Virus record (IMG/VR): IMGVR_UViG_3300010211_000049 | Location: 1 to 25,405 of that record | Reading direction: 5' to 3' (one strand) | Source of the DNA: a virus | DNA: 25,405 nt | Shown: one piece after another, positions 1 to 23,913 of the stretch | Layout: each line of letters starts with the position of its first letter | How positions within the stretch are numbered: the stretch's first letter is position 1 | Made by a program: the position numbers and the translations under genes | Notes under the pieces: model-generated | What the model was told of the DNA's origin: nothing | Database searches by the model: none | Seen by the model: only the letters and a program-made list of their open reading frames with translations

Positions 1-162
1 CTGGCGCTGGCGCTGTCGCTATCGCTGGCGCTATCGCTATCGCTGGCGCTGTCGCTGTCGCTGGCGCTGTCGCTGTCGCTGGCGCTGTCGCTGTCGCTGG
101 CGCTGGCGCTGTCGCTGGCGCTGGCGCTATCGCTGTCGCTGTCGCTGGCGCTGTCGCTTTCG
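1..162. repeat. Hexanucleotide tandem repeat, about 27 units
   Basis: The first 162 bases are an uninterrupted run of six-base units of the form CT(G/A/T)(G/T)CG: CTGGCG, CTGTCG and CTATCG, with one CTTTCG near the end. The array runs off the left edge, so its true length is unknown. All units keep length six, so copy-number change would not shift a reading frame. In the frame of the downstream membrane protein it reads as Gly/Val/Ile-Ala dipeptides; on the minus strand one frame reads Ser-Asp/Ser-Ala dipeptides. Confidence 0.95.
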
Positions 163-164
163 CT

Positions 165-995
165 GTGGAATACGCGAAACATCGGAGGATGGAAGGCCCT
201 TTTCAAACCCTGCTCTGGGTTATGCTCGTCTCGGCCGTAATGGTCTGCCTACGCTATTTGCCCAACTTGGGCAACGACACTTCTACAGAAGAAACCTTCC
301 TCCTCTTCCTAACCCTCATTCCCCTCCTCAACGCCCCTCTGGACTGGCTTTCCCTCGGCATTAGCCGTGGCTTGCTCGGCGCCATCGCTAGTCGCCGACA
401 CACAGGTCTAACGGCGTTCTTCTGGGCGTTGTTGGACTTCCTCCTCGCCTTGTTCTTCTTGGTGCTGGTCTCGCTGGTAACGGTCGCCGGCATTGCGCTC
501 GCCAACCGCATGGCGATGGAGGGCGGCGGCATCGAGATGGTCAATCTAAGCACTCTCTTAGACGGCATTGCGGGCAAGCCGGCAGATTCCGGCTACTACT
601 GGGTCTATTTAATGGTGTTGACGACGCTGATTCCGACACTGATCCATCTGTTGATTGCTAGCGTCGCCTTAATTCTCCACCTTGGACACTATGCGCCCAT
701 CTCCAGGTGGCGAAATACCCTCGCCGCGAAACTGAGTACGCAAGATCGGGATTCCCGCGTCAAGGCTTCAATTTACCTTACCGCAGTCATCACCATCGGC
801 GCCGCGCTGCCCATCATTATGATGCACGCGGGTTGGCGGGGAGCCTCAGAATTGCACAAGCAGAACGCAATCGGCTGGCTCACCACTCAGCTCAAAGGCG
901 TGGCGGGGTGGGTGAATCCCGGGGCAGTGACCCCGGTCGAGCAAACGCCGACGGTTCCTGAGACACCCCAAAACATGAAGTCGATCATGATCTGA
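165..995 (+). CDS. Multi-pass membrane protein of unknown function (5' end uncertain)
   Basis: I do not recognise the family. The 276-residue product has about five hydrophobic segments, near residues 14-32, 44-63, 80-110, 144-170 and 200-222, and a soluble Pro/Thr-rich C-terminus. The GTG at 165 is the first possible start, but no ribosome binding site precedes it. The frame stays open through the whole hexamer repeat to the left edge, so the protein may be longer, with an Ala-rich dipeptide-repeat N-terminus. An ATG at 189 directly follows CGGAGG, which is too close to act as its binding site. The gene converges on the phage genes and ends at a strong hairpin. It is probably host or accessory sequence rather than phage structure; that is inference from its position. 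Confidence 0.6.
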   Translation: MEYAKHRRMEGPFQTLLWVMLVSAVMVCLRYLPNLGNDTSTEETFLLFLTLIPLLNAPLDWLSLGISRGLLGAIASRRHTGLTAFFWALLDFLLALFFLVLVSLVTVAGIALANRMAMEGGGIEMVNLSTLLDGIAGKPADSGYYWVYLMVLTTLIPTLIHLLIASVALILHLGHYAPISRWRNTLAAKLSTQDRDSRVKASIYLTAVITIGAALPIIMMHAGWRGASELHKQNAIGWLTTQLKGVAGWVNPGAVTPVEQTPTVPETPQNMKSIMI

Positions 996-1152: not shown

Positions 1153-2241
1153 TCACTCGCTATCCGACCGATCAGCCTCTTCCCGCACGGCATCCCCCAA
1201 CATCCCCACCCGATACCCCTCGGCCCGCCGGGCGTTGACGAGCGCGAGCGGATCGGCGCCGGTGAGCATGGCGTCGCGTAGGCTCCTGGAGCCGGCCACA
1301 CGGGCCGCCGTGCGCGCGTCGAGGGTGCCCAGGTAGTCGGCCGCCGCCCTTGGGTTCTCGCGCGCCTGGGCGGCACTGAGGCCGATCACGGGGGTGCAGA
1401 CGCAGCGGCAGAACGGGTGGTAGGTCGGCAGCGGAGCCAGCGCCTTGGGATAGCGCCCCGGGCCCAGACCGTAGCGGTCGGCGCGGGCGAACAGATCGCA
1501 GATGTCGGGCGCGTGTCCTGGGCTGAGGCGGATCTGTACCACCTCGATCTGTGGGTCGTCCATCAGCTCGCGGGCGAGCTGGCGGTTCTGCGCCCGGGCC
1601 AGCTCGGTCTGGGCGATGCGGTTGGCGAAGTAGCGGTAGCGCTCCTGGACCGCGATCTCGAGGGCCTTGTCGACGGCGTCCTGGCCCTGCTCCTCGAGGA
1701 CCGCCTCGAGCGCCTGCAGATAGGCCGCGCGCAGCGGCGCGGTCTTGAGCCGCCCGGCCTGGATGCGCGCCATCAGGGCGTCCATGTCGCGGTTGAGGGC
1801 CGCGCTATCCATGTACTTCGGCAGCCGGGGCATCGGCTTGAGGACCTCGTCCTGGCGAAACCCGTAGCCTTCGAAGAGCTCCAGGGCCAGCGCGCGAGCA
1901 TCGCCGCCGTAGCGCTCGAAGTCGGCAACGATCCGCGTCACCAGGGCCGCCGTCTGGCGCGACTGGTGGTAGAGCCGGCTCGACAGCGAGACGGGGCCGA
2001 CGACGAAGCCGCGCATCTCGCGCGCCGTGATGCGCTGCCCGGTGACCTCGCTCAGTGCCTCGGCCAGGGTCTCGACATAGGCCGCGTCGAAGGCCTCGCG
2101 CAGGATATCGACGACTTCCTGGCTCTCGACCCGGTGCCTGCCGCGCACGAAGTTGCGGATGCGCTCCTTCAGGTCCTGGGCGAGCGAACGGATGCGCAGC
2201 CCTACGGCCTGCAGCAGAGCGTCAAAGAGTCCCTCAAGCAT
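1153..2241 (-). CDS. Phage minor head protein, Mu gpF-like
   Basis: This 362-residue protein resembles the Mu gpF/SPP1 gp7 minor head morphogenesis family, which sits at the portal vertex inside the procapsid and helps assembly and DNA delivery. The signature is the C-terminal block with the Cys-rich motif HPFCRC at residues 275-280, preceded by a CDLFARAD stretch near 248-255 and a long helical region (about 190-230). The start ATG overlaps the end of the upstream HTH gene by 8 bases, so the two are probably translationally coupled. It is the last phage gene on the left. A portal gene normally lies directly upstream of a gpF homologue; here it is absent and only a small HTH gene separates terminase from gpF. 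Confidence 0.85.
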   Translation of the reverse strand: MLEGLFDALLQAVGLRIRSLAQDLKERIRNFVRGRHRVESQEVVDILREAFDAAYVETLAEALSEVTGQRITAREMRGFVVGPVSLSSRLYHQSRQTAALVTRIVADFERYGGDARALALELFEGYGFRQDEVLKPMPRLPKYMDSAALNRDMDALMARIQAGRLKTAPLRAAYLQALEAVLEEQGQDAVDKALEIAVQERYRYFANRIAQTELARAQNRQLARELMDDPQIEVVQIRLSPGHAPDICDLFARADRYGLGPGRYPKALAPLPTYHPFCRCVCTPVIGLSAAQARENPRAAADYLGTLDARTAARVAGSRSLRDAMLTGADPLALVNARRAEGYRVGMLGDAVREEADRSDSE

Positions 2242-2494
2242 CCCGCGATACCCAGCGCTCGGCTGTGCGCCGGCTCACGCCCCAGCGCTCGACGAGGATG
2301 TGGACCTTCTCCGTGTGCGAGCGCCCCTCGAGTTGGCGCAGGGTCGAGATCCGATCGCGGGCCCGCAGGGCGAGATCGCTGATCTGGATGCGTTCGCCGC
2401 AGTGACGGGCCAGCACCTCGCGCACGCGGCGCTTGGTGCGCGGACAGCCCTCGATGGCGTCGATCTCGTCGAGCAGGGTCGCGAATACGGTCAT
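2234..2494 (-). CDS. Small helix-turn-helix phage protein
   Basis: The 86-residue product has a C-terminal helix-turn-helix pattern (residues about 63-82, with VERWGVSRRTAERWV) preceded by a helical region. It could bind DNA in the way of Mor/C-type late activators or small terminase-associated proteins, but I cannot name a family. Its start overlaps the terL stop by 4 bases and its end overlaps the gpF-like gene by 8 bases, so it is firmly part of the late operon. It occupies the place where a portal gene would be expected. Confidence 0.7.
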   Translation of the reverse strand: MTVFATLLDEIDAIEGCPRTKRRVREVLARHCGERIQISDLALRARDRISTLRQLEGRSHTEKVHILVERWGVSRRTAERWVSRDA

Positions 2495-3858
2495 AGCGAA
2501 GGCACCTTTACGGCTGGATGGCGGATGGATGGGCGCGCAAGCTCGGCAAAGGCATCGGAGGCAGCGTCCACCTGGTCGTCATACCTGCCGTCCGGAAATG
2601 CCTCGAGCTCAGACAGAAACCCCTCGAGCCAAACGCCTTGGACTACATCGACATTTCCGGCCTGCCATTGCGCCGCAAACGGATCTGCTCTGGTGATTTT
2701 GTCGCCAGTAGGGCGACGAGCCTTCACCGAAAATCCGGACATACTGGAAATGATCGACTGGACCTGGTCCTTCCCGGCTTGCCCGGGATCCTGAGGGATC
2801 GTAATCCTGACACTACGGCCGTCCTGATCGGCATGAGATCGGATCGCGGCCCTTACCTCATGAGAGCGCCGCTGCAGGCGGGAAACGTGCGCGACGACAT
2901 AGCGGCCGTTCTTGCGCTTTCCCATCTTGACCCCGGCTGTCGCGTCCGGGCTCGGGTTGTCCTCGGTGGGCGCTGTCCCTGCGAGGTCCCAGCTTCGCAC
3001 CCAGGCGATGACGTCGCCTGGCTCGACGTCGAGCACAGAGACGCTGTAGCGTGGAAAATAGAGCCCTGCAGCTGGCTTGATCCGCCAGTTGCCCTCCAGA
3101 AGCCGAGCTCTCTCGACGCGCCCCAATGCTTTGAGATTGGCCAGATACCCAGGATCTTTCTCGATCAGGGCCTGGTTGTCGTAGATACTGGCCGGAATGA
3201 ACGTCAAGCTCTTGGCGTCCGCCTCCGCTACACCATGTTGCTCGGCCAGCTCCGCAGGACTGTCTCCCCAATGCACCTTGTCATCGACCCGCACGAAGTA
3301 GCGCACGACACCGCTCCGTTCTTTGATTGGCAGTCCCGTCTCCTGGTCGATCCACCAACTGATGAGTTCGGCTACCCAAGAGTCAGCATCGGGATTGGTC
3401 GTCGCACGCACATAGGGCCGCACACCGCAAGTCGAGCGATTGCGGCTAAGCATGTAGAAAAATTGATAGCGGGTGAAATGCGTCAGCTCGTCGAACATCA
3501 GCAGCGCGATCTGCCCACCCTGCCAGCTCAGCACGTCGCCCTCGCGGTTGAGGTGTGAGAAAGTGACTCTCGCCCCCGACAAGAACCGATACCCGAGCTT
3601 CGGTGCCCTGAATGGAGCGGCGCCGATCAGCGGGTAGAGCTTCATGGACTCATCCCACAGGCCGCCCTCGTTCGTGATCTGGGTCGCCTCGCGACGGAAG
3701 ATGACGCCCCCGAACCCGCCGATGCCGGAATGCCTCAACGGCTCGAGCAGAAGCGCAAACGTCTTCCCGCCCCCAGCTCCACCACCGTAAATGGCGATGT
3801 CTGCAGAGGACGAGAGGAACGCCTCCTGGGGTCCTGGCTGCGGTCTGATCTCAATCAC
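2491..3858 (-). CDS. terL: Terminase large subunit (packaging ATPase and nuclease)
   Basis: This is the motor that cuts concatemeric phage DNA and pumps it into the procapsid. The 455-residue protein has a Walker A motif GGGAGGGKT (25-33), a Walker B motif LLMFDE (119-124, Asp123/Glu124), and a coupling motif with TTNP (153-156). The C-terminal RNase H-like nuclease shows WDLAGT (Asp291), DPGQAGKD (Asp357) and DGRYDDQVDA (Asp427-Asp431), so all acidic residues expected for cleavage are present. Length is within the usual range. It overlaps terS and the next gene by 4 bases each, showing a tight operon. Nothing suggests decay of this gene, in contrast to the missing portal and capsid genes. 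Confidence 0.95.
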   Translation of the reverse strand: MIEIRPQPGPQEAFLSSSADIAIYGGGAGGGKTFALLLEPLRHSGIGGFGGVIFRREATQITNEGGLWDESMKLYPLIGAAPFRAPKLGYRFLSGARVTFSHLNREGDVLSWQGGQIALLMFDELTHFTRYQFFYMLSRNRSTCGVRPYVRATTNPDADSWVAELISWWIDQETGLPIKERSGVVRYFVRVDDKVHWGDSPAELAEQHGVAEADAKSLTFIPASIYDNQALIEKDPGYLANLKALGRVERARLLEGNWRIKPAAGLYFPRYSVSVLDVEPGDVIAWVRSWDLAGTAPTEDNPSPDATAGVKMGKRKNGRYVVAHVSRLQRRSHEVRAAIRSHADQDGRSVRITIPQDPGQAGKDQVQSIISSMSGFSVKARRPTGDKITRADPFAAQWQAGNVDVVQGVWLEGFLSELEAFPDGRYDDQVDAASDAFAELARPSIRHPAVKVPSL

Positions 3859-4355
3859 CGCTCGCTCCTCGGCAGGTAAACGACGACACGATCGTCGTCA
3901 CCGTCCTTGCGCCCGGAGTTGGCGTCGTAGATCCCTAAATGCCGGCACAACTTCTCAAGTGCCGAGTTCTTGTCTGCCAACTTGATCTTGACGCCGAAGC
4001 GGGTCTCGCTGACCTCGACGATCGCGCGGCGCTTTGCTTTGTCGAGCGCCGAACTTTCGCGCAGCGTCACGCCATTCGGCCCCCAGTCAACGAACTCGGC
4101 CAGATCCGCGAATCCGAGGATCGCCAGCTCCTGGATCACGCGGTCGGCGTTGATCCCGAGACGCGCGCTGCGCTCCTTCTGGGCGGCCTGTATCGCGGCC
4201 CGAACTCTAGGATTTTCTAGTAGCTGATAGCCGATGCGACCAGCCATTTTCTTGGAGTAGCCGGCCCTGACTGCCGCCTGGGTCGCGTTGTAGTCGACGG
4301 GGTACTCCTCGACGAACCGCGCTTGCTTGGGGACCAGGCGTCTCTCGCTGCTCAC
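3855..4355 (-). CDS. terS: Terminase small subunit (terminase_2 family)
   Basis: The 166-residue protein begins with the typical small-terminase HTH region (LVPKQARFVEEYPVDYNATQ at residues 7-26, followed by AAVRAGYS), which recognises the packaging site and delivers DNA to TerL. The middle (about 75-140) is helical and would form the oligomerisation domain. The C-terminal tail is acidic then basic, as expected for TerL contact. It is the first gene of the terS-terL-HTH-gpF unit and overlaps terL by 4 bases. No strong promoter is evident directly upstream. Confidence 0.92.
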   Translation of the reverse strand: MSSERRLVPKQARFVEEYPVDYNATQAAVRAGYSKKMAGRIGYQLLENPRVRAAIQAAQKERSARLGINADRVIQELAILGFADLAEFVDWGPNGVTLRESSALDKAKRRAIVEVSETRFGVKIKLADKNSALEKLCRHLGIYDANSGRKDGDDDRVVVYLPRSER

Positions 4356-5045
4356 GACCCGCTTCTCTTCACCAAAAGCGCCGAGATCAGTGTCGTGGAT
4401 TTCATGCCGCGCCTTCGTGGGTGCCTATCGATGCTGGATAGGCTATCGGCGCAGGCTGAGAGGTGATAGTTGGAATTTACCAAATTGGGGAATTCCAATA
4501 GAGGAAGGCGATTAGGACACCCGGGTTGTCGATCTTGAGTGCACGACAGGATGAGCATCGAACACGTTTCTATGGCCCTGAACCGTATCCGGGTTTATGA
4601 TCAAGGCGTGTTCGCTGGGTTTGAGAGAGCGAGCCCGGGGCTTGATTGGCGGCCTGGCTTCCGACTGGCACATCGGATCGCGTGCTCTATGTAATCGCCA
4701 ATAGTCGGTGTGAGGCTCTCCCTGGTAGATGTGCAGCGTTATGGGCATCTCGTTACACAAATCTCCGCCAACCTAGCCCTAAATCGCTGATTTATATAGA
4801 CAGACGTTTTTAGTGCAGTCACGCGACATCAAGCACTTACAGACTTGTGTGTAATGGGATGCGTTATGGGAGAGTATCAGAGAAAGTCGGGGATGAGGCA
4901 ACGCAATGGGAATATTTAACAGAATCCATCTAGCCCTGTAATTCGTGATTCAGTCTATTCAATTGTTAAGAGATAATTATGGGAGGCGCAGTCCATAAGA
5001 ACGTTTTCATTTTACTGCGCACATACTGCATCGTCAGCTGAACCA
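4356..5045. other. Intergenic region with a drop in GC content
   Basis: About 700 bases between divergent genes terS (-) and the Hint protein (+). The part up to about 4760 is GC-rich and holds only unconvincing short frames, for example a 48-codon + frame from 4551 and an 82-codon - frame at 4512-4760; neither has recognisable features. From about 4770 the base composition becomes clearly AT-rich and stays so through the Hint gene to about 5830. The promoters of terS and of the Hint gene must lie here, but I see no convincing -35/-10 pair. No tRNA was seen. Confidence 0.6.
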
Positions 5046-5058
5046 AGGAGATTTAAGA

Positions 5059-5733
5059 ATGAAAAAAGACCCAAATAGAGAATTGGCCAAACAACGTCTC
5101 AACATGGGAAAAGAGCCAGGAGGCTCTTATGCAGATCTAAATAATAAATATGAGAGACAACAGCATGCAAACCAAGTTCAAAAGAATAGTCGAGGTGGAG
5201 GTGGACGCCCCTCATGCTTTACTGGTAATACCATGGTCCTAACGCCAAATGGCTGGAAAAGGATTGATGAATTTAGAAGAAATGACATCGTGCTTTCTTA
5301 TTCTTTGGGCAAAAAGTCGCTCATGGAGCGAGAAGTCTTAAGAGTTAAGAGGCACAAGAGCCTTTCTCGGGTGTGGGAGATGAGATTTTCTCTGAGTAAA
5401 GAGGTTGTTCAAACAACAAGCACCCACTCATTCTTAACTCAAAGAGGGTGGGTCAAGACCAAGAATCTGGTTTTAGGTGACAATACCCTATATATCGATG
5501 ATGCTGGAAATCTCGTGAATCAGAATGTCGTGTCAGTAACTGCAACTGAGGAATATAGCGAGACCTTTAATCTGGTTACAACCAGAGACAATAACTTTAT
5601 CGTACAGGGAGCTATCGCCCACAATTTCACGCATTTGCGTTTGCTACGTTCCTTGATCACCAATATTGGTAACGAATTAGCGAGCGAGCTTTCTTTTGTG
5701 AGTGATCAGAAAACCGAACAAGCTATTCCCTGA
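5059..5733 (+). CDS. Stand-alone Hint / bacterial intein-like (BIL) domain protein
   Basis: The 224-residue protein has a 52-residue hydrophilic N-flank with a Gly-rich stretch (45-49), a Hint domain of about 137 residues, and a 35-residue C-flank. Hint hallmarks are present: Cys53 starts the domain (CFTGNTMVLTPNGWKRI), block B TxxH is Thr120 to His123 followed by FLT, and the domain ends with His188-Asn189 after the block-F-like stretch FNLVTTRDNNFIVQ. The residue after Asn189 is Phe, not Cys, Ser or Thr, which fits BIL type A-like autoprocessing or cleavage rather than classical intein splicing. There is no homing endonuclease insert. AAGGAG about 8 bases before the ATG supports the start. 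Codon use is AT-rich and the gene opposes its neighbours, so it is probably acquired cargo. Its target or role is unknown. Confidence 0.85.
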   Translation: MKKDPNRELAKQRLNMGKEPGGSYADLNNKYERQQHANQVQKNSRGGGGRPSCFTGNTMVLTPNGWKRIDEFRRNDIVLSYSLGKKSLMEREVLRVKRHKSLSRVWEMRFSLSKEVVQTTSTHSFLTQRGWVKTKNLVLGDNTLYIDDAGNLVNQNVVSVTATEEYSETFNLVTTRDNNFIVQGAIAHNFTHLRLLRSLITNIGNELASELSFVSDQKTEQAIP

Positions 5734-6080
5734 AGCATAGTATTGAGCAAATAATTGGTTTAGCGCTGACCCGATATCGCGAAATAAGCTGATTGTAGAA
5801 TTAAAGCTTTTAGCAGTGCGGTATTGGGCCAGCTAGTCACTTGCTGGCCTGTTATAGTTGGATGATCTGGATTGAGAAGATTGTGGCGCTACCCCAGGGT
5901 TCTGGCTGGCCTTGCAGGCCGACTTGCGATACAGAGGAAGTCTTACGTGCGCGCGGAGCCGAGTTGGCACGGATCCAACCGCTAGCCGCCTGATGACGCG
6001 CCGCATGCACCAACCACCCGCCCAGGGGAACTGCTGCGGGAACTGTGGCTCGCGCGGGCTGACCCGCAGCGCTGATCCGC
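5734..6080. other. Intergenic region with hairpin at 5827-5849
   Basis: GGCCAGC (5827-5833) pairs with GCTGGCC (5843-5849) over a 9-base loop, with no T-run after it; it may end the Hint gene transcript. To the right, 5850-6080 is GC-rich and open in several frames. One minus frame (6084 to 5833, 83 codons) begins with an ATGA overlap to the HTH gene stop, which is the usual coupling in this operon. Its product has no recognisable feature, so I leave it as only a possible gene. Confidence 0.45.
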
Positions 6081-6266
6081 TCATGCCGCCCTCAACACCC
6101 TGATCTCCTCGATCCGAGCCAGATAGGCCCGCACCCACCTCGGCACCCCGACCCGCGATCCGCCCCACTCGATCACGGACCAGTAGCTCACCCCGACCTC
6201 CCTGGCAAAGGAGGTCGGGGTGTAGCCATGTCTCTTGAGCAGGGCACGAAACTCGGCACGGGTCAT
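6081..6266 (-). CDS. Small XRE/Cro-type DNA-binding protein
   Basis: The 61-residue product has the pattern of small phage HTH proteins: TRAEFRALLKRHGYTPTSFA, then REVGVSYWSVIEW as the turn and recognition helix, then a VPRWVRAYL helix. I chose the ATG at 6266 because GGGGGAG lies about 4 bases upstream; an in-frame ATG at 6278 has a weaker site and would add four residues. It is on the leftward transcript downstream of rha. It is likely a transcription regulator, with target unknown. Confidence 0.75.
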   Translation of the reverse strand: MTRAEFRALLKRHGYTPTSFAREVGVSYWSVIEWGGSRVGVPRWVRAYLARIEEIRVLRAA

Positions 6267-6311
6267 TCGCTCCCCCATCGGATTCCCAGCCAGAATCCCT
6301 GAGTTCAGGTC

Positions 6312-7097: not shown

Positions 7098-7355
7098 AGC
7101 GGTGGTCTCCAGACTGACTTGAGAACCGCCACCGGCCGCTGCGAAACGGAATGGGTGGCGGATGCCACAGGGTTCGCAGTACCGGGTCTGGAGAACCGGC
7201 GCGTCCGAAGACGCCCCCATGACACCCGCCATAGAACAAGCGGGCGCAAAAAAAGCGCCTTCACGAGCGCTTGATGCGCTCCAGAACTTCGGGCTGCGAC
7301 CCCCGGTCACGGATTTTGCCGTGACGGAATCAGCATAGGCCGTCATTCGCGCCAT
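7098..7355 (-). pseudogene. Ash/Icd-like region, reading split between two frames
   Basis: The gap before rha reads like the short Ash (host cell division inhibitor Icd-like) family on the minus strand, but in two frames. One frame, shared with rha and open from an ATG at 7355, gives REGAFFAPACSMAGVMGAS followed by SDAPV. The family continuation (GxANPVxxxTH pattern) appears in another frame as PGTANPVASATHSVSQ. This resembles a frameshifted gene, though GC-rich shadow reading could mimic it. A GAGCGC-ttgat-GCGCTC hairpin sits at 7265-7281. My recollection of the Ash motif is from memory and not checked by search. Confidence 0.3.
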
Positions 7356-22998: not shown

Positions 22999-23913
22999 AT
23001 GTTCAAGAACGCTCACCTCTTTCGACTCGACGCGCCCTTCCTTATCAGCACGACCGAGCTCGACGAGCTGCTCCGGAGCTACCGGGCACGGCCCTGCGGC
23101 CCGGCCGAGATGAGCCATCTGGGCTGGTCGGATCCGCTCGACGAGGAGACGGACGCTTGGTTCGCCCGCGAGATCGCTGGCTGCACCATGATCTGCGCGA
23201 CCCTCCACCAGCGGGTGCTGCCGGCGGCGGCGATCCTGAACGCGCTCCACGAACGCGTGCGCGGCATCCAGGACCAGGAAGGACGCCAGGTCGGCCGCGC
23301 CGAACGTCGACGGCTGCGCGAACAGCTGATCGCCGAGATGCTGCCCAAAGCCTTCCAGCAAACGCGCCGGATTCGGGCCTACATCGATCGCCAATCGGAT
23401 TGGATGGTCGTCGACGCGGGCAGCGCCGGCCAGGCCGAGGGCGTGGTCACCCTGCTGCGCAAGACGCTCGGCTCGCTGCCAGCCCGACCGCCCTACCCCG
23501 GCGTGGATCCGGCGTCCGTGATGACGGGATGGATCGCTCAAGAGCCCCCGGCCGACGTCCACCTCGGGCGCGGCTGCGAGCTGCGCGATGACGACGAGGT
23601 GGTGCGCCTCGCCGGGCTGGACCTATCAAGCGAGGAAGTCCTGAGCCATATCGGCGCTGGCAAGAAGGCCTCGGTCCTCGATCTCTTCTGGGATGATCGG
23701 CTGAGCTTCACCCTGACCGAGGACCTGGCCGTCAAGCGTCTGAAGGTGAACGAAGCGATTCGGGGCGGCGCGGAGCTGGGAGACGACCCGGCCTCGCAAC
23801 TGGAAGCGGATTTCGCACTCCTGGCGCTGCAGATGCGCCTGCTGCTGAGACGGCTGGAGACGCTGTTCCAGCTCATCGATGTCGATGAGCAGACACAGAG
23901 GGCGGCGGCATGA
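22999..23913 (+). CDS. rdgC: Recombination-associated protein RdgC
   Basis: The 304-residue protein matches RdgC, a ring-shaped DNA-binding protein of beta- and gammaproteobacteria that restrains RecA. It starts MFKNAHLFRLDAPF, has RPCGPAEMSHLGWSDPL at 31-47 and a basic region IQDQEGRQVGRAERRRLREQ followed by LIAEMLPKAF typical of the family, and continues with ASVLDLFWDD and LTEDLAVKRLKV near the C-terminus. Length is full. A phage-borne copy next to exonuclease and annealing genes may tune recombination away from RecA. CAGGA lies before the ATG. A small gene follows with an ATGA overlap. Confidence 0.9.
   Translation: MFKNAHLFRLDAPFLISTTELDELLRSYRARPCGPAEMSHLGWSDPLDEETDAWFAREIAGCTMICATLHQRVLPAAAILNALHERVRGIQDQEGRQVGRAERRRLREQLIAEMLPKAFQQTRRIRAYIDRQSDWMVVDAGSAGQAEGVVTLLRKTLGSLPARPPYPGVDPASVMTGWIAQEPPADVHLGRGCELRDDDEVVRLAGLDLSSEEVLSHIGAGKKASVLDLFWDDRLSFTLTEDLAVKRLKVNEAIRGGAELGDDPASQLEADFALLALQMRLLLRRLETLFQLIDVDEQTQRAAA

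Follow-up and report, generated by a model that had tools for sequence, protein, structure and literature searches.

Why would a temperate phage carry, next to its terminase genes and on the opposite strand, a lone AT-rich gene that encodes little more than a Hint domain, and what reaction would the product perform? The gene lies in the window, the whole 25,405-base stretch of an IMG/VR virus record that was analysed. Our reading, to which we give a probability of about 0.5, is that it is a cargo-type (moron-like) phage gene whose product, a compact Hint protein resembling A-type bacterial intein-like (BIL) domains, would process itself by N-terminal cleavage. The natural role of BIL domains is largely open; a near-pure Hint protein offers a convenient minimal case.

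The Hint Gene and Its Phage Surroundings

The features of the locus are as follows.

1153-2241, minus strand: MuF-like protein, left of the Hint gene
2491-3858, minus strand: TerL, left of the Hint gene
3855-4355, minus strand: TerS, left of the Hint gene
4700-5899, no strand: AT-rich island with the Hint gene as the sole gene inside (100-bp GC at most 0.49 throughout)
5045-5058, plus strand: Shine-Dalgarno sequence AAGGAGAT and spacer ahead of the ATG (direct reading)
5059-5733, plus strand: gene for the stand-alone Hint protein, 224 aa (open reading frame, family matches, shuffle test)
5059-5214, plus strand: N-terminal flank, residues 1-52, with the Gly-rich linker RGGGGRPS at its end (helix at 27-41 in a model of low confidence)
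5215-5625, plus strand: Hint domain, residues 53-189 (Cys53 in block A; T120 and H123 in block B; N171 in block F; H188 and N189 in block G)
5626-5730, plus strand: C-terminal tail, residues 190-224 (predicted helix 191-216, pLDDT about 61-79 by blocks)
5827-5849, plus strand: GGCCAGC/GCTGGCC hairpin 3' of the Hint gene (weak terminator candidate)

The gene has a strong Shine-Dalgarno sequence and a clean start (ACCAAGGAGATTTAAGA-ATG), and its uninterrupted frame of 224 codons is longer than any obtained when the region was shuffled 300 times by mononucleotide (mean 81, maximum 217). An earlier note on this DNA had described a single AT-rich gene opposite the late operon, and so it proved: the gene is on the plus strand and the terminase genes on the minus strand, with a GC content of 0.422 (42%) versus 0.61 (61%) for the window. 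GC3 is 0.42, against 0.64-0.90 in the nine other genes measured, and the lowest-GC 675-bp segments of the record fall at this gene (0.41), the lowest elsewhere having 0.53. The limits given to the island in that note, 4770-5830, were a fair call, since 100-bp GC does not exceed 0.49 from 4700 to 5899. The same note had taken the composition as a mark of recent acquisition; composition points to a foreign origin only, and the word "recent" has to be dropped.

No sigma-70 promoter for the gene was found on the plus strand, where site numbers are at chance level, and the hairpin at 5827-5849, which lacks a good T run, is not significant as an intrinsic terminator (z -1.07). A 12-nt near-repeat, GTKATAGTTGGA, stands on both sides of the island (4463 and 5851). 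An integron cassette was considered and rejected: no complementary RYYYAAC site was seen before 5851, and pairs of the GTKATAGTTGGA type are expected by chance.

To the right of the Hint gene lie a Rha regulator and a C4-type antisense RNA. The latter (78.8 bits), with adjoining isrK and c4-a1b1 target RNAs, occupies 7151-7338 on the minus strand just upstream of the Rha-type regulator, and the cluster looks like an antisense immunity switch of the P1/P22 type. An integrase, a YqaJ recombinase, RdgC and DNA methylases, all encoded in the record, fill out the picture of a temperate phage; the RdgC gene is full-length (22999-23910, plus strand, E 1e-85) and near the phage YqaJ recombinase. No gene of the record was recognised as a tail gene, and models of anti-phage defence gave no match. 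Elsewhere, a tandem CTGTCGCTGGCGCTGTCG repeat (about nine copies of 18 nt; 1-166, plus strand) that is open in all three forward frames forms the record end, and an unlisted small ORF of about 60 aa (MTRAEFRALLKRHGYTPTSFAREVGVSYWSVIEWG...; 6085-6280, minus strand), helix-turn-helix-like, contains a 13-nt perfect inverted repeat (6189-6222). Relatives of TerS and TerL, sought in viral contigs and in genome contigs, never have a free-standing Hint ORF beside the terminase, and so give no empty-site comparison at the terminase position.

A Complete Hint Domain between Two Short Flanks

In an AlphaFold2 model built on a 53-row alignment, residues 53-189 adopt a full Hint fold, with pLDDT mostly above 90. 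A fold search with this model superposes them on mini-inteins and on the BIL domain of C. thermocellum at 1.3-1.6 A, Cys53 being aligned to intein residue 1 and Asn189 to the last intein residue. Fold and alignment thereby give exactly the bounds previously proposed, and Cys, TxxH and HN are retained as stated there; the absence of an endonuclease insert and the very short flanks (52 and 35 residues, in a stand-alone ORF) are likewise borne out. PT-HINT (PF07591) is the sole Pfam family above its own cut-off, the Intein_splicing match has an E of 1.3e-8, and NCBIfam also gives intein/PT-HINT matches.

The residues of the N-terminal reaction are close to universal among the 53 aligned Hint domains (Cys in 46, Thr in 51, His in all 53). 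The block-F Asn171 is common to 50 of the 53, and a block-F His is present in 36, at a position where the window protein has Asn178. Direct reading gives Phe190 as the +1 residue. The N-flank has no match in Pfam, NCBIfam or PHROGs, and the tail has no family match in Pfam or NCBIfam.

One Clear Relative and Other Hint Proteins

Stand-alone Hint proteins are rare in our genome scans (1,997 genomes in total, mostly Pseudomonadota, from overlapping samples, with fewer than 2,000 distinct genomes), which contain one clear relative, L131. This protein, found through its Hint match (E 4e-20), has 215 aa, is about 30% identical to that of the window, and is composed of a zinc-ribbon-like start (Pfam DZR_2, weak at E 0.078), a Gly-rich linker, the Hint domain and a 34-residue tail. 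The first nine tail residues are similar in the two proteins (HN-FTHLRLLRS in the window, HS-FVRFRRLRS in L131; anchored p 0.00015-0.00045), and the terminal Asn is not shared. The earlier note had looked to homologues for conserved flanks: the start of the C-flank is conserved, the N-flank is not beyond its Gly-rich stretch. As judged on this one clear relative, there is also no sign that the gene is a fragment of a larger split gene. In the Hint tree the two join at 92/88, both on long branches, a grouping that is suggestive only. The L131 gene has a P450-like gene on one side and, on the other, one for a membrane protein with pentapeptide repeats (GC3 0.49 for L131, 0.85 and 0.55 for this pair). 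It comes about 1.6 kb after a serine recombinase, and genes for conjugation-type coupling proteins lie further upstream still.

By pairwise score, the next best after L131 is L178, a stand-alone Hint protein of 186 aa (L199:9668-10228, minus strand) whose gene has SodB and nitronate monooxygenase genes on its two sides and lies within a few kb of the Dot/Icm (type IVB secretion) genes DotI and DotH. We do not count it as a third secure member, because in the Hint tree its domain falls among proteins from the bacterial order to which it belongs (93/90); its stand-alone layout may be convergent.

Some of the next-nearest Hint domains come from tail-tip proteins of phages, where polyGly flanks them. 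Several tail-tip or tail-assembly-like proteins (L272:2303-3619, L279:2541-3851, L274, L294, L281, L221) hold a complete Hint domain between two Gly-rich stretches, for example GGGG-C...HN-GGGGK, a placement that suggests a recurrent insertion site. Eight fibre-type phage proteins (L276, L284, L285, L286, L288, L289, L292, L293) end in polyGly-Hint-HN and a few residues, an arrangement in which splicing would have little point but cleavage or transfer at the N-terminal side would be sensible.

The tail-tip proteins bring in a first alternative, namely that the window gene is a decaying leftover, its Hint domain stemming from some larger protein of a phage or bacterium and persisting as a solo gene without selected function. 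The window protein still has RGGGGRPS before Cys53, its N-flank is unconserved, and such proteins are rare in the scans. However, decay fits poorly with a clean start and Shine-Dalgarno sequence, an uninterrupted frame and intact catalytic residues, or with a relative of the same layout and similar tail start, and we consider it unlikely.

So minimal a Hint protein in a prophage had been called unusual. Free-standing ones are uncommon, but not unique: besides L131 and L178, BFVD already includes phage Hint proteins as small as 143-228 aa (e.g., A0A1S5RCV4 and A0A8S5VBL2). Peptide-pattern scans of viral contigs returned nothing better than weak matches to inteins with the window protein, and none with L131 or with the alignment of the two; a similar scan of genome contigs gave no homologue. 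A DNA pattern for the tail motif had three matches in viral contigs, none within a Hint gene. In phages and plasmids the matches were all partial and fell in inteins, PT-HINT and other large Hint proteins; E. coli genomes yielded no homologue.

The Probable Reaction

In the N-terminal cleavage that we favor, the protein would fold and then process itself. Cys53 would attack the Ser52-Cys53 peptide bond (an N-S acyl shift helped by Thr120 and His123) to form a thioester; water, a thiol or an amine would then attack the thioester, and the 52-residue N-terminal peptide would be released or transferred. The Hint domain would retain its C-terminal amphipathic helix, as in the Hedgehog C-terminal (Hog) arrangement. 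Cyclization of Asn189 and cleavage after it would be possible in the window copy, as a less conserved step.

N-terminal cleavage with the tail kept is the likeliest shared reaction because the thioester residues Cys, Thr and His are kept in the window protein, L131 and L178 and the C-terminal ones are not: the terminal residue is Asn in the window and Ser in the other two, and all three have Asn or Asp at the place of the block-F His. The full Hint fold, the near-universality of the N-terminal residues and the tail start shared with L131 argue in the same direction. Against this stand the single secure relative and the N-flank, whose lack of conservation would be odd if the N-peptide were the functional product. 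In addition, tail amphipathicity is significant in the window only (shuffle p 0.025, versus 0.21 in L131 and 0.13 in L178), and the L131 tail helix is predicted at low confidence. Finally, the window copy keeps His-Asn, and the reaction it chiefly performs may be ligation or cleavage at the C-terminal side.

That pair of residues is what a second alternative builds on. Cyclization of Asn189 would free the 35-residue amphipathic C-terminal peptide (FTHLRLLRSLITNIG...), the Hint domain acting as a release module of the pretoxin type; PT-HINT, the one Pfam family above its cut-off, is indeed a releasing module set just before toxin domains (PMC3482391). Yet L131 and L178 have Ser in place of the terminal Asn, the block-F His is gone in all three, no secretion module or immunity-like partner is seen in the island, and toxin domains are usually far longer than this tail, which together make peptide release quite doubtful.

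A third possibility is splicing of the A-type BIL kind, in which the freed Phe190 amine would attack the Cys53 thioester and join N-flank and tail into an 87-residue protein. Phe190 had been held to exclude classical splicing, which is right for the branched-ester pathway but does not extend to the A-type BIL reaction: A-type BILs have no +1 nucleophile and are nonetheless able to join their flanks (PMC4031507), and every residue of the proposed pathway is present, but cleavage dominates in the known ones (PMC4031507) and L131 lacks the terminal Asn, so that we give splicing little credence.

Returning to N-terminal cleavage, a bolder extension would place the window protein in a small prokaryotic family of Hog-like, free-standing proteins. 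Delivered as phage cargo, these would form a thioester on a short N-peptide, select an acceptor (a membrane component or a protein amine) through the conserved tail helix and transfer the peptide to it covalently. We regard this as a long shot. With intact catalytic residues and a tail start in common with a distant relative, the window protein would allow cleavage, ligation and transfer to be distinguished with two point mutants of a single protein of 25 kDa.

Comparison with Known Hint Systems

The Hedgehog C-terminal autoprocessing domain (1at0) shares the Hint fold (Z 19.5) and the order of N-part, Hint domain and C-terminal tail; identity is about 20%, the window protein has a terminal HN, and the likeness is one of layout alone, implying no acceptor or sterol. 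The mini-inteins NpuDnaB (4o1r, Z 21.8) and Mtu RecA (2in0) have the same fold (Z 21-22). The window protein differs from them in block F (Asp to Asn) and, as from class 1 inteins generally, in having Phe190 in place of a Cys, Ser or Thr at +1 of the C-extein and flanks that match no family in place of a conserved host protein interrupted in frame. From PT-HINT pretoxin modules, whose profile it matches with 28.2 bits, just over the curated cut-off of 27.7, it is set apart by a 35-residue tail where the toxin domain should directly follow, no secretion or repeat region before the Hint domain and no immunity-like partner in the island. The polyGly Hint domains of tail-tip proteins (L272, L279, L274, L281, L221) resemble it in the Gly-rich sequence just before Cys1, but they form part of larger structural proteins, and in them HN too is followed by a Gly-rich sequence.

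By sequence criteria the window protein is an A-type BIL domain: it combines the Hint fold with Cys1 in block A, TxxH in block B, a C-terminal His-Asn (H188-N189, which align with the end of the intein) and a non-nucleophile at +1, without an endonuclease, and the C. thermocellum BIL domain (PDB 2lwy) is closely similar in structure to its model (Z 20.9, 1.3 A over 133 residues). Unlike other A-type BIL domains it is free-standing, with flanks of 52 and 35 residues, and has Asn for the block-F His. For now, it extends the known BIL class and founds none, probably as a modest member with an unusually minimal layout.
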